Source: an uncultured Pelagibacteraceae bacterium (GTDB taxonomy: Bacteria > Pseudomonadota > Alphaproteobacteria > Pelagibacterales > Pelagibacteraceae). Taken from it: 37,572 nucleotides of DNA. The first letter of the stretch is position 1. Each line of letters starts with the position of its first letter. A program made the translations under genes and the position numbers. The notes under the pieces were generated by a model. It did not search any database. It had not been told where the DNA came from and was given only the letters and a program-made list of their open reading frames with translations. Where the stretch lies: contig CACJCG010000004.1 of the NCBI GenBank assembly GCA_902591845.1, positions 1 through 37,572 on the forward strand, written 5' to 3'. Positions 21,591-27,817 of the stretch are shown here, piece after piece.

Positions 21591-22118
21591 ATGAACTTAA
21601 AAGATTACATTAGATCTATACCTGATTATCCAAAAAAAGGCATTTTATTTAGAGATATCACTACATTAATCAAAGATGAAAATGCATTTGCTGAAACAAT
21701 TAATCAAATTGTTGAAAGATCAAAAAAATTTAACTTCACTAAAATTGCAGCGATAGAGTCTAGAGGATTTGTTTTTGCATCTGCTGTTTCTTATATATTA
21801 AAAAAACCTTTTGTAATGCTCAGAAAAAAAAATAAATTACCTGCTGAAGTTCATTCGGTAGATTTTGAACTTGAATATGGAACTGCAACTATTGAGGTAC
21901 ATAAAGATTCTATTAATAAAGAAGATTCAGTTTTGATAATTGATGATCTAATAGCTACCGGGGGGACTGCAGAAGCTGCAGCAAAATTAGTTGAAATTTC
22001 TAATGGAAAAGTAGAAGCTTTTATTTTTGTAATAAACTTATTTGATTTGGGTGGGTCTGAAAAATTAATTAAAAGTAACTATAAAGTTGAGAATTTATTG
22101 GACTTTCCAGGACATTAA
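21591..22118 (+). CDS. apt: Adenine phosphoribosyltransferase
   Basis: LKDYIRSIPDYPKKGILFRDITTLIKD; AIESRGFVFASAVSY; VLIIDDLIATGGTAEAAAKL. Confidence 0.97.
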   Translation: MNLKDYIRSIPDYPKKGILFRDITTLIKDENAFAETINQIVERSKKFNFTKIAAIESRGFVFASAVSYILKKPFVMLRKKNKLPAEVHSVDFELEYGTATIEVHKDSINKEDSVLIIDDLIATGGTAEAAAKLVEISNGKVEAFIFVINLFDLGGSEKLIKSNYKVENLLDFPGH

Positions 22119-22164
22119 AAAAAATTGTTGAGTTTTTTATAATAATATAAAAATCTATAAATGA

Positions 22165-23319
22165 ATGGATTTACAAATAAATAGTGTATTAGAATTAATT
22201 AAAAATAAAAAGTTTAAAGAAGCTATTTTTGATCTTAATAAATTAGTTGAAGAAGATAAAAATAATATAAATTATTACCACTTAAGAGGAATATCTTATT
22301 TAAAATTAGCAAATTTTGATTTGGCAATAAATGATTTTAACCATCTTTTAAAATTAAAACCTGATTTCCCAGATGTTTATAATAATCTTGGAGTGCTTTA
22401 TTTTTCAAATGGTGAGAATGAACTTGCAATCCAAAATTTTCATAAAGCAATTGAATTAAAAGAAGATTTTCAACAGGCAAAAAATGGTTTAATTAAAGCT
22501 TTATGCCACAAGAATTCTACAACAATAAATAATTCTAATATCTTTGAAAATCATAATGAGATTAATAAAATAAAAGTTGAATATTCTCCTTACAGATTTA
22601 TAGAAGACAACACTATTGTAAATTTTTTAGATAAAAGTATAAAAGCGATTAGCAAAAAATTTGAAAAATTAGAATACCAACCAACACAAATTTATAGAAG
22701 AGATTTAATGTCACTTAACTGCAAGAGACATAAAAAAATATTCAATACTCATAAAATAATACCTGAGTTTTGTTTTGGTTGTTATAAAGTTCAAATTGAA
22801 CCTGAAAATATTATAGATTTAATTAAACTTTATATTTTATTTGATAATATTTACTTGAGTAATATACGAAAATGTATGGTCGAGTTAAGATCAAAAATTA
22901 AAGGAAATTATAAAGGTATAATATATTGCAAATCTATTGAAGAAGCAAAAAAAGTACAAAAAAAAATAACTAATCATATGGATCATAATTTTAATAAAAA
23001 AATACCCATCAAAATAAAAAGAGGCTGTACTGAATATGGCTTTGAATATCCACAATATAATAATCTTGAGAAGAATATTATGTATTATAAATCTGATTGG
23101 AAAAATTATGAAAATTTGATTGATAACAGCCTTCCCCACCTAGCATTTAATGAAAAGATTCAACCCACAATTAAAGGATCTACACTGCATGATATTTTGG
23201 TTATTAGAAATTGGATTTATTTTGCAAAATTAAATGGAGATGAAAAATTTGATTTATTAACAAGTCAATTATTTGAGTCTAATTATATTAAAAAAAAAAT
23301 AAGTTTAAAATATTCATAA
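22165..23319 (+). CDS. TPR-repeat protein with uncharacterised Cys/His-containing C-terminal domain
   Basis: N-terminal TPRs (NINYYHLRGISYLKLANFDLAINDFNHLLKLKPDFPDVYNNLGVLYFSNGENELAIQNFHKAIEL). C-terminus: LNCKRHKKIFNTHKIIPEFCFGCYKVQIEPENIIDLIKLY...RKCMVEL...IYCKSIEEAK...IKRGCTEYGFEYP. Confidence 0.88.
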   Translation: MDLQINSVLELIKNKKFKEAIFDLNKLVEEDKNNINYYHLRGISYLKLANFDLAINDFNHLLKLKPDFPDVYNNLGVLYFSNGENELAIQNFHKAIELKEDFQQAKNGLIKALCHKNSTTINNSNIFENHNEINKIKVEYSPYRFIEDNTIVNFLDKSIKAISKKFEKLEYQPTQIYRRDLMSLNCKRHKKIFNTHKIIPEFCFGCYKVQIEPENIIDLIKLYILFDNIYLSNIRKCMVELRSKIKGNYKGIIYCKSIEEAKKVQKKITNHMDHNFNKKIPIKIKRGCTEYGFEYPQYNNLEKNIMYYKSDWKNYENLIDNSLPHLAFNEKIQPTIKGSTLHDILVIRNWIYFAKLNGDEKFDLLTSQLFESNYIKKKISLKYS

Positions 23320-23346
23320 TTTTCAATAATTTTAAATTTTGAAAAC

Positions 23347-23355
23347 TTATCCACA
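23347..23355 (+). promoter_or_regulatory. Perfect consensus DnaA box (TTATCCACA)
   Basis: Exact 9-mer in the intergenic gap between the TPR gene and the GMP reductase gene. Confidence 0.5.
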
Positions 23356-23405
23356 GGTAAGAATCTAATTGAAAAAGTAATTTTTGCTAGGTAATTTCTT
23401 GTGAA

Positions 23406-24440
23406 ATGAGAATTGAAGAAGAGCTAAAACTAGATTATTCAGACGTTTTATTTAGACCTAAAAGAAGTACATTAAAAAGTCGTAAAGACGTAAATTTGTT
23501 AAGAACTTATAGATTCAAATATAGTAAAAATGAATGGTCAGGAATCCCAATAATGGCCGCAAATATGGATGGAGTTGGGGAATTAAGTATTGCTGAGAAA
23601 TTAAATGACTATGGAATGATAACATCTTTAACAAAACAACATGATGTTAAAAAAATTAAACAAAATAAAAATATAAAAAAAATATATCCTAATATTGCAC
23701 TTAGTGTTGGTATAAAAAAAGAGGATTTTCAAAATTTAGATAAAGTATTAAAAGAATTTAGTTTTTTTAAGTTTATTTGTATTGATGTAGCAAATGGATA
23801 CACAGAACATTTTACTAATTTTATTAAATCAGTAAGAGATAAATATCCTACTAAAACAATAATTGCAGGTAATGTAGTAACAGCAGATATGGCTCAAGAA
23901 TTAGTTCTTAGTGGAGCGGATATTGTTAAAGTTGGGATTGGACCTGGAAGTGTTTGTACCACAAGAATTCAGACTGGAGTTGGTTATCCACAATTAAGTG
24001 CGGTAATCGAATGTGCTGATGCAGCACATGGACTTGGTGCACATGTAATAGCAGATGGCGGGTGTACATGTCCTGGTGATGTTGCCAAAGGTTTCGGAGG
24101 TGGTGCAGATTTTGTAATGCTTGGGGGTATGCTTGCAGGACATGATGAAGGTAATGGTAAAATTGTAAAAGTAAATGGAGAAAAATATATAGAATTTTAT
24201 GGATCTAGTTCTGAAGTTGCTAACAAAAAACATTATGGTGGACTTTCAGATTATCGAAGTAGTGAGGGAAGAAAAGTCAGAGTAAAATATCGAGGAAAAA
24301 TAAACGATACAATTTTAAATATACTTGGTGGTGTAAGAAGTAGTTGTACTTATGTTGGTGCACCTTCACTCAAACAATTAAGTAAATGTACAACTTTTGT
24401 AAGAGTGTCTAATCAATTTAATGATAGTTTAATTAAATAA
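23406..24440 (+). CDS. guaC: GMP reductase / IMPDH-family protein
   Basis: LKLDYSDVLFRPKRSTLKSR; GADIVKVGIGPGSVCTTRIQTGVGYPQLSAV; VIADGGCTCPGDVAKGFGGGADFVMLGGMLAGHDE; YRSSEGRKVRVKYRG. Confidence 0.93.
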   Translation: MRIEEELKLDYSDVLFRPKRSTLKSRKDVNLLRTYRFKYSKNEWSGIPIMAANMDGVGELSIAEKLNDYGMITSLTKQHDVKKIKQNKNIKKIYPNIALSVGIKKEDFQNLDKVLKEFSFFKFICIDVANGYTEHFTNFIKSVRDKYPTKTIIAGNVVTADMAQELVLSGADIVKVGIGPGSVCTTRIQTGVGYPQLSAVIECADAAHGLGAHVIADGGCTCPGDVAKGFGGGADFVMLGGMLAGHDEGNGKIVKVNGEKYIEFYGSSSEVANKKHYGGLSDYRSSEGRKVRVKYRGKINDTILNILGGVRSSCTYVGAPSLKQLSKCTTFVRVSNQFNDSLIK

Positions 24441-24444
24441 TTTA

Positions 24445-24960
24445 CTATTCAAACTCAAAATCTTTTATATTTGTAGTTTCGTATTTCTCGAAAGGCATAT
24501 GTATCCATGGAGAATCTTTTAAATAATCTACAGAATAATCAGGTTTAAATTTTGAAGTTGATTTGTGCCAAATTACAGCTGTTTTAATTTTCTCTTCTAA
24601 ATAAAATCCATAAAAATGTTCTAACCATTTAATACTTTTTATCAACGTTTTCCCGCTGTCTGCTAAATCATCAACTAGTAAGACATGCGAGCCTAAGTTT
24701 GGGGTAGTTTTTGCTAAGTCTCTTGAAAAAGTAAACTGACCTTGTTGATTTTTAACATCATCACTATCACCATGGTAAGACTCAACAGATAAAATAGCTA
24801 AAGGCACATTGAAAAGCCTACTAAAAACATCACCTAATCTTAATCCCCCTTTTGCAATACAAATGATTTGATTAAATTTTAAATTATCCTCATTAACTTT
24901 TTTAGCTAATTGCTCTATCTTCTTATGATAATCGTCCCAACTAATGTATATATCTTTCAT
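24445..24960 (-). CDS. Purine (xanthine/hypoxanthine-type) phosphoribosyltransferase family protein
   Basis: YISWDDYHKKIEQLAKKV; IICIAKGGLRLGDVFSRLF; VLLVDDLADSGKTL PRPP motif. Confidence 0.88.
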   Translation of the reverse strand: MKDIYISWDDYHKKIEQLAKKVNEDNLKFNQIICIAKGGLRLGDVFSRLFNVPLAILSVESYHGDSDDVKNQQGQFTFSRDLAKTTPNLGSHVLLVDDLADSGKTLIKSIKWLEHFYGFYLEEKIKTAVIWHKSTSKFKPDYSVDYLKDSPWIHMPFEKYETTNIKDFEFE

Positions 24961-24965
24961 AATTT

Positions 24966-25042
24966 TGGTAGCGGGAAGTGGGATCGAACCACTGACCTCG
25001 GGCTTATGAGTCCCGCGCTCTAACCAACTGAGCTACCCCGCC
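24966..25042 (-). tRNA. tRNA-Met (anticodon CAU), CCA encoded
   Basis: Minus strand GGCGGGGTAGCTCAGTTGGTTAGAGCGCGGGACTCATAAGCCCGAGGTCAGTGGTTCGATCCCACTTCCCGCTACCA folds as a 77-nt cloverleaf; elongator-Met-like. A lysidine Ile2 identity is less likely but not excluded. Confidence 0.96.
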
Positions 25043-25113
25043 TTATTAATTGATTAATGATTTATAATATAAATCTTTATTGTTTCAATAAACTTTTTAA
25101 ATCTAATTCTAAA

Positions 25114-25323
25114 CTATATAATAAAATAAACAGCTAATGAGCTAACCAAACCAGCTAAAATAATTGTAAAAATAATTCTCTTCTTTAATGTTCTTTTTTT
25201 ATCCATTCTTACTCTATTTAACAAAATATTTACGTTAGTAGTTTTAATCTTGTCTTCATGTAAATCTTTGTTTGAAGAAACATCAGATTTTAATAATGTT
25301 GTATCTTGGTCGCTTTTTTTCAC
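25114..25323 (-). CDS. Small single-TM protein, unknown function
   Basis: 69 aa: charged N-terminal region, then KKRIIFTIILAGLVSSLAVYFII. Confidence 0.6.
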   Translation of the reverse strand: MKKSDQDTTLLKSDVSSNKDLHEDKIKTTNVNILLNRVRMDKKRTLKKRIIFTIILAGLVSSLAVYFII

Positions 25324-25372
25324 AGTTCATTTAAACAGTTATTACTTTTAAATACAATAAAATTAAGAAATA

Positions 25373-27817
25373 CTAAATTTTTTTAAAATCTTTTGAATTT
25401 AATGGTTTTAATAGTATTTCAACTGGATATTTGATTTTTTCAATTTCTATAAATAAATTTTGATTTCTCAGGGTTTCTATTGAGTGTCCCGAGTTGACGT
25501 ATCCAAATGATAAATTTTTCTCAAAACAAAAAGAATAATTTCCTGAGGTTGTTCTTCCAATAATTTTATCATTTAAATAAATAGGCTCTTCGTGCAACAA
25601 TAAAGGTTGACCAGGTTTGCTGTCTTTCAATGTAAACATCATCATTGTTTTTTCTAGAGATTTATCTTTAATTTTCAACAAAGCATCTTTGCCAATAAAA
25701 TTAATATTTTTTTTATAACTTATCGTAAATTTTAAACCGGCTTGATACTGATTTTCTTCTGGAGAAATATCATGACCCCAATGTAAAAAACCACTTTCCA
25801 TTCTCATTATATCCATTGCATGCATACCACAATGAGATAAATCGAAATTTTTACCTTCATTAATCAAAATTTTGTATAATTTTAAAGCGTTTTCTTTATC
25901 AACGTATAATTCGAACCCAAGTTCGCCAACATATGATATTCTTTGCGCCCAAACCTTAATGTTTTTTATTTTAACATTTTTGCCTGTACCAAATTTAAAT
26001 TTTTCTTTGCTATAATCATCGTTACTTACCTTTTCTATCATGTCTCGACTTTTAGGACCAAACAAACCAAGGCAACAAATGTTTTCAGTAACATCTGAAA
26101 ATTCAACATCTTCAGACAAGTATTTAAGGATATGATGTTTGTCTCTTTCTCTTGTTGCTGCTGAACTAACTATTCTAAAATGATTTTTATCAAGACAAAC
26201 AACTGTTAGGTCTGATTCAATACCACCATCATCATTTAGCATATGAGTATAAGTAGATTTACCAATTTCATTTTTAATATTAGCCGTACAAATTTTTTGC
26301 AATTCAATATGAGTTTTTTCACCTTTCAAATCAAATTTAGAAAATGTTGAAAAATCAAAAAGTCCAACGTTTTGCCTAGCATTTATAGTCTCATGTTTTA
26401 CTGATGGATACCAATTTTGGTGGTTAAAACTGTATTCATATTTTGGTTTTTCTCCATTTAAAGAATACCACATAGGTCTTTCAAAACCTCCTGTCACACC
26501 AAAACAAGCACCTGCTTTTTTTAATTCATCATGATAAGGTAATAATTTTTCATTTCTTGATGTTGAATGCTGTTTAAAAGGCCAGTGCATACCATATAAA
26601 TCTCCTAAAGTTTCTGTAACTCTCTCCATAATGAATTTTTTAGATGAATGAAATTTTTGAAATCTTTTTATGTCCAGTGAAAATAAATCTTCATTTATAT
26701 GACCGTTAATTATCCATTCTGCTGTTACTCTTCCTGCTCCTCCAGAACTTGCTATTCCGATACTATTGAAGCCACAACATGTATAAAGATTTTTAACTTC
26801 TGGTGTTTCTCCAAGTAAATACTGAGTATCAGGTGTAAAGGATTCAGGACCTGAGAAAAATTTTCTTATGCCTGCGTTTTGTAACATTGGAAGTCTATAA
26901 ATCGATTTTTCAAGGTATGGTTCAAAGTGATCAAAATCATCAGGAAACTCTCCAAATGAAAAATCATCAGGGACTCTTCCACTTTCTTTGAATGCAGGTT
27001 TTGCATTTGGCTCAAAAATTCCTACCAACATTTTTCCAGCGTCTTCTTTTAGATAAAGACAAGCATTGTAATCTCTTAAAACAGGTAAATCTTTAGGAAG
27101 ATCCTTCATTGGTTCCGTAATGACATAGAAGTGCTCATTCGGATATAATGGAACACTAGCACCAATATCTTCTCCAATTTGTCTAGACCACATTCCTGAG
27201 GCTAAAACAACATATTCACAATCAATTCTTCCTTGAGTAGTTTCAACACCACGTATTTGTTTATTTTTAACTAAAATTTTTTTTACTGGTAACTTCTCAA
27301 ATATTTGAACACCTAACATTTTAGCAGCTTTAGCTAATACATTGGTAACACCTACCGGATCTGCCTGGCCATCTTTTGGCATATAAACACCACCAATAAG
27401 ATCCTCGTTATTTACTACTGGATATAATTCTTTTACTCTTTCTTTATTTAAAACCTCAACCTCAACATTAGATAGTTGTGCTGTTGTGGCCTGTCTTAGT
27501 AACTCCTGCATTCTTTCTTTAGATGAAGCCACTGTTATTGCTCCGTTTTGTTTAAGACCAGTTGATAATCCTGTTATTTTTTCAAGTTCTTTATAAAGAT
27601 CTAAGGAATATTTTCTCAATTTTGTAATTGTTGAACTAGCCCCTAATTGTCCTATTAATCCTGCAGCGTGCCAAGTAGTGCCTGATGTTAATTGATCTCT
27701 TTCAAGCAAAACAACATCTTTACAACCAAACTGAGCCAAATGGTATGCGCAAGATGTACCTGCAACACCACCTCCAATAACAACAACTTTAGTAATTTTT
27801 GGAATTTCCTTGATCAT
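25373..27817 (-). CDS. Dimethylglycine/sarcosine dehydrogenase-like FAD oxidoreductase with C-terminal GcvT (THF) domain
   Basis: VVVIGGGVAGTSCAYHLAQFG; TSGTTWHAAGLIGQ (covalent-flavin His context); GcvT-like VGLFDFSTFSKFDLKG, YVGELGFELYV, GMHAMDIMRMESGFLHWGHDI. Confidence 0.94.
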   Translation of the reverse strand: MIKEIPKITKVVVIGGGVAGTSCAYHLAQFGCKDVVLLERDQLTSGTTWHAAGLIGQLGASSTITKLRKYSLDLYKELEKITGLSTGLKQNGAITVASSKERMQELLRQATTAQLSNVEVEVLNKERVKELYPVVNNEDLIGGVYMPKDGQADPVGVTNVLAKAAKMLGVQIFEKLPVKKILVKNKQIRGVETTQGRIDCEYVVLASGMWSRQIGEDIGASVPLYPNEHFYVITEPMKDLPKDLPVLRDYNACLYLKEDAGKMLVGIFEPNAKPAFKESGRVPDDFSFGEFPDDFDHFEPYLEKSIYRLPMLQNAGIRKFFSGPESFTPDTQYLLGETPEVKNLYTCCGFNSIGIASSGGAGRVTAEWIINGHINEDLFSLDIKRFQKFHSSKKFIMERVTETLGDLYGMHWPFKQHSTSRNEKLLPYHDELKKAGACFGVTGGFERPMWYSLNGEKPKYEYSFNHQNWYPSVKHETINARQNVGLFDFSTFSKFDLKGEKTHIELQKICTANIKNEIGKSTYTHMLNDDGGIESDLTVVCLDKNHFRIVSSAATRERDKHHILKYLSEDVEFSDVTENICCLGLFGPKSRDMIEKVSNDDYSKEKFKFGTGKNVKIKNIKVWAQRISYVGELGFELYVDKENALKLYKILINEGKNFDLSHCGMHAMDIMRMESGFLHWGHDISPEENQYQAGLKFTISYKKNINFIGKDALLKIKDKSLEKTMMMFTLKDSKPGQPLLLHEEPIYLNDKIIGRTTSGNYSFCFEKNLSFGYVNSGHSIETLRNQNLFIEIEKIKYPVEILLKPLNSKDFKKI

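Follow-up and report, generated by a model that had tools for sequence, protein, structure and literature searches.

The PRTase gene examined here, which encodes a purine phosphoribosyltransferase-like protein, begins almost directly behind a tRNA-Met gene, and the reading that we favour, with moderate confidence, is that both are carried on one transcript which is cut at the tRNA to release a near-leaderless PRTase message without a Shine-Dalgarno (SD) sequence, the layout being a product of genome streamlining and SD-independent translation starts rather than a dedicated device. The window, that is the whole stretch of 37.6 kb that was analysed, belongs to a 757-kb genome of SAR11 (Pelagibacteraceae) that is 59% complete. 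On the minus strand the letters across the junction are ...CCCGCTACCA-AAATT-ATGAAAGAT, where the tRNA-Met ends in CCGCTACCA and the AAATT that follows is succeeded by the PRTase start ATGAAAGAT. A preliminary description had placed the start of the PRTase ORF 5 nt past the CCA of the tRNA-Met, and this was confirmed by the sequence itself, ARAGORN, Rfam and the ORF (Table 1). The tRNA-Met(CAT) was assigned as the elongator by elimination when compared with the remaining CAT tRNAs found in a relative.

Table 1. Features at and around the tRNA-Met/PRTase junction (positions refer to the window)
Feature	Position	Strand	Remarks
apt-like PRTase	21591..22118	(+)	conserved; placed right behind tRNA-Met in relatives that lack the block
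TPR protein	22165..23319	(+)	Pfam TPR; missing from the empty site in relatives
guaC (GMP reductase)	23406..24440	(+)	convergent with PRTase, 4 nt gap; NCBIfam above cut-off
PRTase, purine phosphoribosyltransferase-like, 171 aa	24445..24960	(-)	ORF and Pfam PF00156
Spacer AAATT, CCA to start codon	24961..24965	(-)	6 nt (AAAATT, TAAATT, AAAACT) in most relatives
tRNA-Met(CAT)	24966..25042	(-)	CCA encoded; ARAGORN; Rfam tRNA 62.6 bits
-10-like hexamer TATAAA	25061..25066	(-)	16 nt from the -35; distance to the tRNA 18 nt here and about 15 nt in most relatives
-35-like hexamer TTGAAA (TTGNAA in relatives)	25083..25088	(-)	position and sequence conserved in the 67-locus alignment; putative promoter

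Upstream of the ATG at 24960 the PRTase frame remains open for 24 codons into tRNA-Met and contains no in-frame ATG, GTG or TTG, while across an alignment of 67 loci (65 loci among the matches listed, the window and one duplicate record) the ATG is invariant and codons 1 to 20 vary mainly at third positions. The lack of an upstream start codon and the third-position drift with conserved residues identify this ATG as the start, and both an earlier and a later start were ruled out, the latter as had been anticipated from the N-terminus. The protein scores 84.5 bits against Pfam Pribosyltran (PF00156; gathering score 26.3; 6e-24) and 52.6 bits against the xanthine phosphoribosyltransferase equivalog NF006613, where the curated cut-off of 138 is not reached; matches to xanthine/hypoxanthine PRTases are likewise weak and below cut-off, and the nearest solved structures are the purine PRTases 4trb and 1vdm. 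Median identity across loci is 97.6% at codon positions 1 and 2 and 77% at position 3, from which the PRTase is evidently under purifying selection and thus presumably expressed.

Relatives were scanned with one GTDB genome per species, yielding 141 matches, of which the 80 loci considered here are those listed, at 90-98% protein identity; all close matches to the locus are Pelagibacteraceae assemblies. Among these listed matches the same PRTase ATG comes 5-12 nt after tRNA-Met in 65 of 80 loci, so that the spacing, whose conservation in relatives had been proposed as a check, is retained, and in 57 of the 67 aligned loci (among the matches listed, with the window) the spacer measures 6 nt, mostly AAAATT, TAAATT or AAAACT, within a range of 5-12 nt. 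As PRTase nucleotide identity falls to 79% at the extreme among the matches listed, with the third-position median given above, conservation of the junction exceeds what chance would give and does not reflect recent identity. These loci were picked for carrying the PRTase and are uninformative on the frequency of the gene, a copy of which at no less than 79% identity occurs in only 3 of 37 genomes of the genus sample, many of which carry a relative of about 35-47% identity. A phage-borne copy of the junction was rejected, the phage matches listed being tRNA-like, at 77-83% identity, and mostly annotated tRNA genes.

The element upstream of the tRNA that resembles a promoter is conserved: TA[TG]TATAA[AG] is present in 56 of 67 loci (among the matches listed, with the window), its distance to the tRNA hardly varying, and TTGNAA-16 nt-TATAAA is conserved also in loci with differing upstream genes. 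A strict sigma-70 consensus scan of the minus strand from 24300 to 25500 called no promoter, this element included, and no terminator, and the spacer between tRNA-Met and the PRTase ATG has room for neither. Given the promoter-like element, the lack of room for intervening signals and the conserved linkage, tRNA-Met and PRTase are likely co-transcribed, and the tRNA-mRNA co-transcript envisaged in the preliminary description is thereby a well-supported proposal. Such a transcript would start at the element upstream of tRNA-Met, pass through the tRNA and PRTase and end against the convergent guaC. Also upstream of tRNA-Met, at 25114-25323, an ORF of 69 aa whose C-terminus is hydrophobic is conserved among relatives at about 48-77% identity; no match to it was found in Pfam or NCBIfam.

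In the processing route that we favour, RNase P would cut the 5′ end of the tRNA, an endonuclease, most likely RNase E, would cut in the AU-only spacer or the CCA, and exonucleases would trim the tRNA. Of the 41 genomes scanned, 37 have RNase E, 36 of these with a match above cut-off. RNase Z was rejected as the cutter, as none of the 41 genomes has a match above cut-off and the weak match in the genus is a 256-aa metallo-beta-lactamase-fold protein. No RNase PH above cut-off was found in the window's genus, where the weak matches fall on a protein of about 690 aa, presumably PNPase, while the sister SAR11 family has RNase PH; that family also has a longer RNase D-like form, the genus itself only a short RNase D-like protein. 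These absences are tentative since most sampled genomes are incomplete, G012, a member of the genus, being however closed. Propionibacterium acnes, a species without an obvious RNase Z, cuts CCA-encoding tRNAs a few nucleotides downstream (PMC3848588), and a cut of this type would here put the 5′ end of the resulting mRNA within the spacer.

The remaining mRNA would have a leader of 0-6 nt and a 5′-proximal AUG used without an SD; a near-leaderless PRTase message is thus plausible if tRNA-Met is excised. Neither the spacer AAATT nor the 3′ end of tRNA-Met contains an SD, so the absence that had been described for the junction is real; the significance attached to it did not hold, as it is ordinary for SAR11 and persists where no tRNA precedes, close PRTase copies having no SD with or without a tRNA in front. 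The closed genome G012 (1.34 Mb; analysed in stretches, with genes called by a simple codon-usage caller) has an SD 4-mer at -18 to -3 in 196 of 1196 ATG genes as compared to 80 in shuffles, with a peak at -8 to -12, indicating that SD sites are used by a minority of genes. The missing SD was therefore rejected as a special feature of the junction: 84% of ATG-start genes in G012 are without a 4-mer SD despite a 16S 3′ end that retains CCTCC, the anti-SD being intact. In the window's own genes the SD count is near chance.

Translation could also begin before the transcript is cut, and an alternative that we consider unlikely, albeit the strongest of those weighed, is that the co-transcript is translated mainly before excision, the 30S subunit binding the AU-rich AUG region with the tRNA folded upstream and excision inactivating or destabilising the message. 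RNA folding predicts that the leader and first codons are mostly unpaired, which suits the favoured route, and that the tRNA forms a separate domain. For the alternative, the folded tRNA would leave NCCA and 5 nt single-stranded before the AUG; the general scarcity of SD sites at SAR11 starts is in keeping with this order of events, and slow 3′ maturation is conceivable given that neither RNase Z nor RNase PH was found above cut-off in the genus. On the other hand, with only 9 nt between the tRNA body and the AUG the folded tRNA may not fit the mRNA channel of the 30S subunit, and tRNA processing in bacteria is usually fast.

The PRTase stands without an intact tRNA directly in front in 15 of the 80 loci among the matches listed, seven having the tRNA 3′ half only and three a sequence like a decayed version of that half, while one retains a degraded tRNA and the other four have no tRNA there. 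This persistence means that expression does not need tRNA excision, and since these relatives keep the PRTase another promoter must serve there, which would favour a reading in which a promoter dedicated to the PRTase lies within the tRNA or overlaps it and gives a short conventional leader beginning in tRNA sequence. Promoters inside genes are common in bacteria; we nevertheless regard such an arrangement at this junction as improbable, because no sigma-70-like site was found on the minus strand in the scan, the tRNA sequence is constrained and GC-rich, and the conserved element lies upstream of the tRNA instead. At three loci (L047, L096, L103) tRNA-Met is downstream, not upstream, of the PRTase-guaC pair, and L047 keeps a decayed tRNA copy upstream.

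Neighbourhood comparisons established that guaC travels with the PRTase, and that PRTase, guaC and the TPR gene form a block of variable cargo between tRNA-Met and apt in the window; at the empty site (L168, L170, L174, L177, L178) apt follows tRNA-Met after 0-2 nt. Other genomes have different cargo in this interval, often nucleotide-sugar and glycosyltransferase-like genes as judged by eye, and the interval (window 21591-25042; L156, L162, L177 and others) is, by these comparisons, an insertion hotspot, at which the PRTase-guaC-TPR block would have come to lie. In the more distant relative L003, guaC is directly upstream of the PRTase in the same direction. The seven loci (of 80 among the matches listed) with only a tRNA 3′ half have the usual spacer before the PRTase, and six of them also have, beyond an insert, an intact tRNA-Met at a distance of 0.6-2 kb upstream, behind which come TTCTAGA and, deeper in the insert, short repeats such as TGCTCCACTGGTGCTCCA. 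An intact tRNA-Met with a 3′-half copy has the appearance of site-specific integration into a tRNA, and partial tRNA-Met copies in other genomes (the 3′ half in G020, 1-63 in G008, 22-56 and a 5′ part in G011 and G027) mark past integrations; tRNA-Met is the attachment site of integrative elements in relatives. In five loci (L045, L050, L062, L076, L086, at ~2840-2950) differing inserts have a common end sequence, AGGGTTCATGGCGATAGACTCATAAG, beside the tRNA 3′ half, which suggests one family of integrative elements.

Several junctions of this kind occur in each SAR11 genome that was examined, and the present one is not unique. Co-directional CDS starts at most 12 nt from a tRNA, counted in five genomes with a simpler common method, amounted to 4 of 7 in the window's own genome, 7 of 16 in G012 (spanning 3-9 nt), 9 of 16 in G022 and 4 of 14 in the other SAR11 family, all four of these at 9 nt, as compared to 1 of 17 in G061, a non-streamlined alphaproteobacterium of 5.4 Mb; short junctions recur in SAR11 at 3-11 nt. 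Fisher tests against G061 gave p=0.017 for G012 and p=0.002 for G022, values that are not independent since SAR11 genomes share ancestry, with a single outgroup that is thin. The genes adjoining tRNAs include trigger factor (tig) behind tRNA-Leu(tag), NAD kinase, an NDUS4-like gene and a GIY-YIG protein. A CCA-transferase-like gene was also seen 3 nt after tRNA-Gln (L235, L207) and hisS 4 nt after tRNA-His (L208), some of all these neighbours scoring below curated cut-offs, and the position of tRNA-related genes right behind tRNAs is a possible feedback arrangement.

No orientation bias that would signal selection for tRNA-mRNA fusions was found, convergent genes abutting tRNAs about equally; they end 0-6 nt from tRNA 3′ ends and are as tight in 9 of 10 cases in G012. 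This crowding, together with a median co-directional CDS-CDS distance of 1 nt in G012, explains the spacing by streamlining. The same observations, and the changing neighbours of the hotspot, would suit a pure accident of streamlining, in which the tRNA promoter would drive little or no expression of the PRTase and deletion bias brought the genes together without functional consequence, a reading that we hold to be the least probable of all, as the purifying selection on the PRTase implies probable expression and the window shows no other promoter. Returning to the processed co-transcript, the spacing itself is owed to streamlining and the interest lies in its consequence for expression. A wider and more doubtful proposal is that SAR11 use tRNA punctuation regularly, with roughly one in four tRNA genes (as many as half of the co-directional junctions) releasing near-leaderless, SD-less mRNAs upon tRNA excision, those of hisS and the CCA-transferase-like gene included, and tRNA maturation setting protein level. 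A search of the open-access literature turned up no description of this layout in SAR11.

Tycheposons are tRNA-targeting integrative elements of streamlined plankton which in Methylophilaceae are bordered by tRNA-Met (PMC10872708). The locus resembles them in having tRNA-Met as border and attachment site, in its variable metabolic cargo and in the partial copy that insertion at the tRNA leaves at the far end (six loci of the junction and G020); the inserts beside the PRTase, which measure 0.6-2 kb, are candidate members. The locus illustrates a way in which insertion beside a tRNA could bring genes under the control of the tRNA promoter.

Co-transcripts of tRNA and mRNA are established in E. 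coli, where thrU-tyrU-glyT-thrT-tufB and metY-nusA have a shared promoter and a transcript that is cut at the tRNA, and messages of this type keep longer leaders with SD sites. The promoter shared by tRNA and protein gene and the cut at the tRNA would be common to both situations, whereas the leader at this junction would be just 5 nt. Leaderless mRNAs are also known in alphaproteobacteria, Sinorhizobium meliloti having 171 transcription start sites of leaderless mRNAs (PMC3616915); a 5′-proximal AUG and the lack of an SD are alike, but in S. meliloti transcription itself begins at the AUG, while here the 5′ end would come from tRNA processing. A close parallel in layout is the tRNA punctuation of animal mitochondria, in which likewise the start codon adjoins a tRNA, with neither an SD nor a further promoter at the boundary, and tRNA excision releases leaderless mRNAs; here it would leave a message almost without leader. 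SAR11 differ in that their tRNAs encode CCA, the spacer is 3-11 nt as opposed to about 0, only some tRNAs precede a co-directional gene and excision of the message is a prediction. If regular punctuation in SAR11 were true, tRNA maturation would be linked to protein output, leaderless, SD-independent initiation would become testable in a cultivated streamlined bacterium, and mitochondrial tRNA punctuation would have a counterpart in free-living bacteria; should the RNA ends agree, a bacterial group that ranks among the most abundant would make a set of its mRNAs by cutting out tRNAs and translate them nearly without leader, as mitochondria do.
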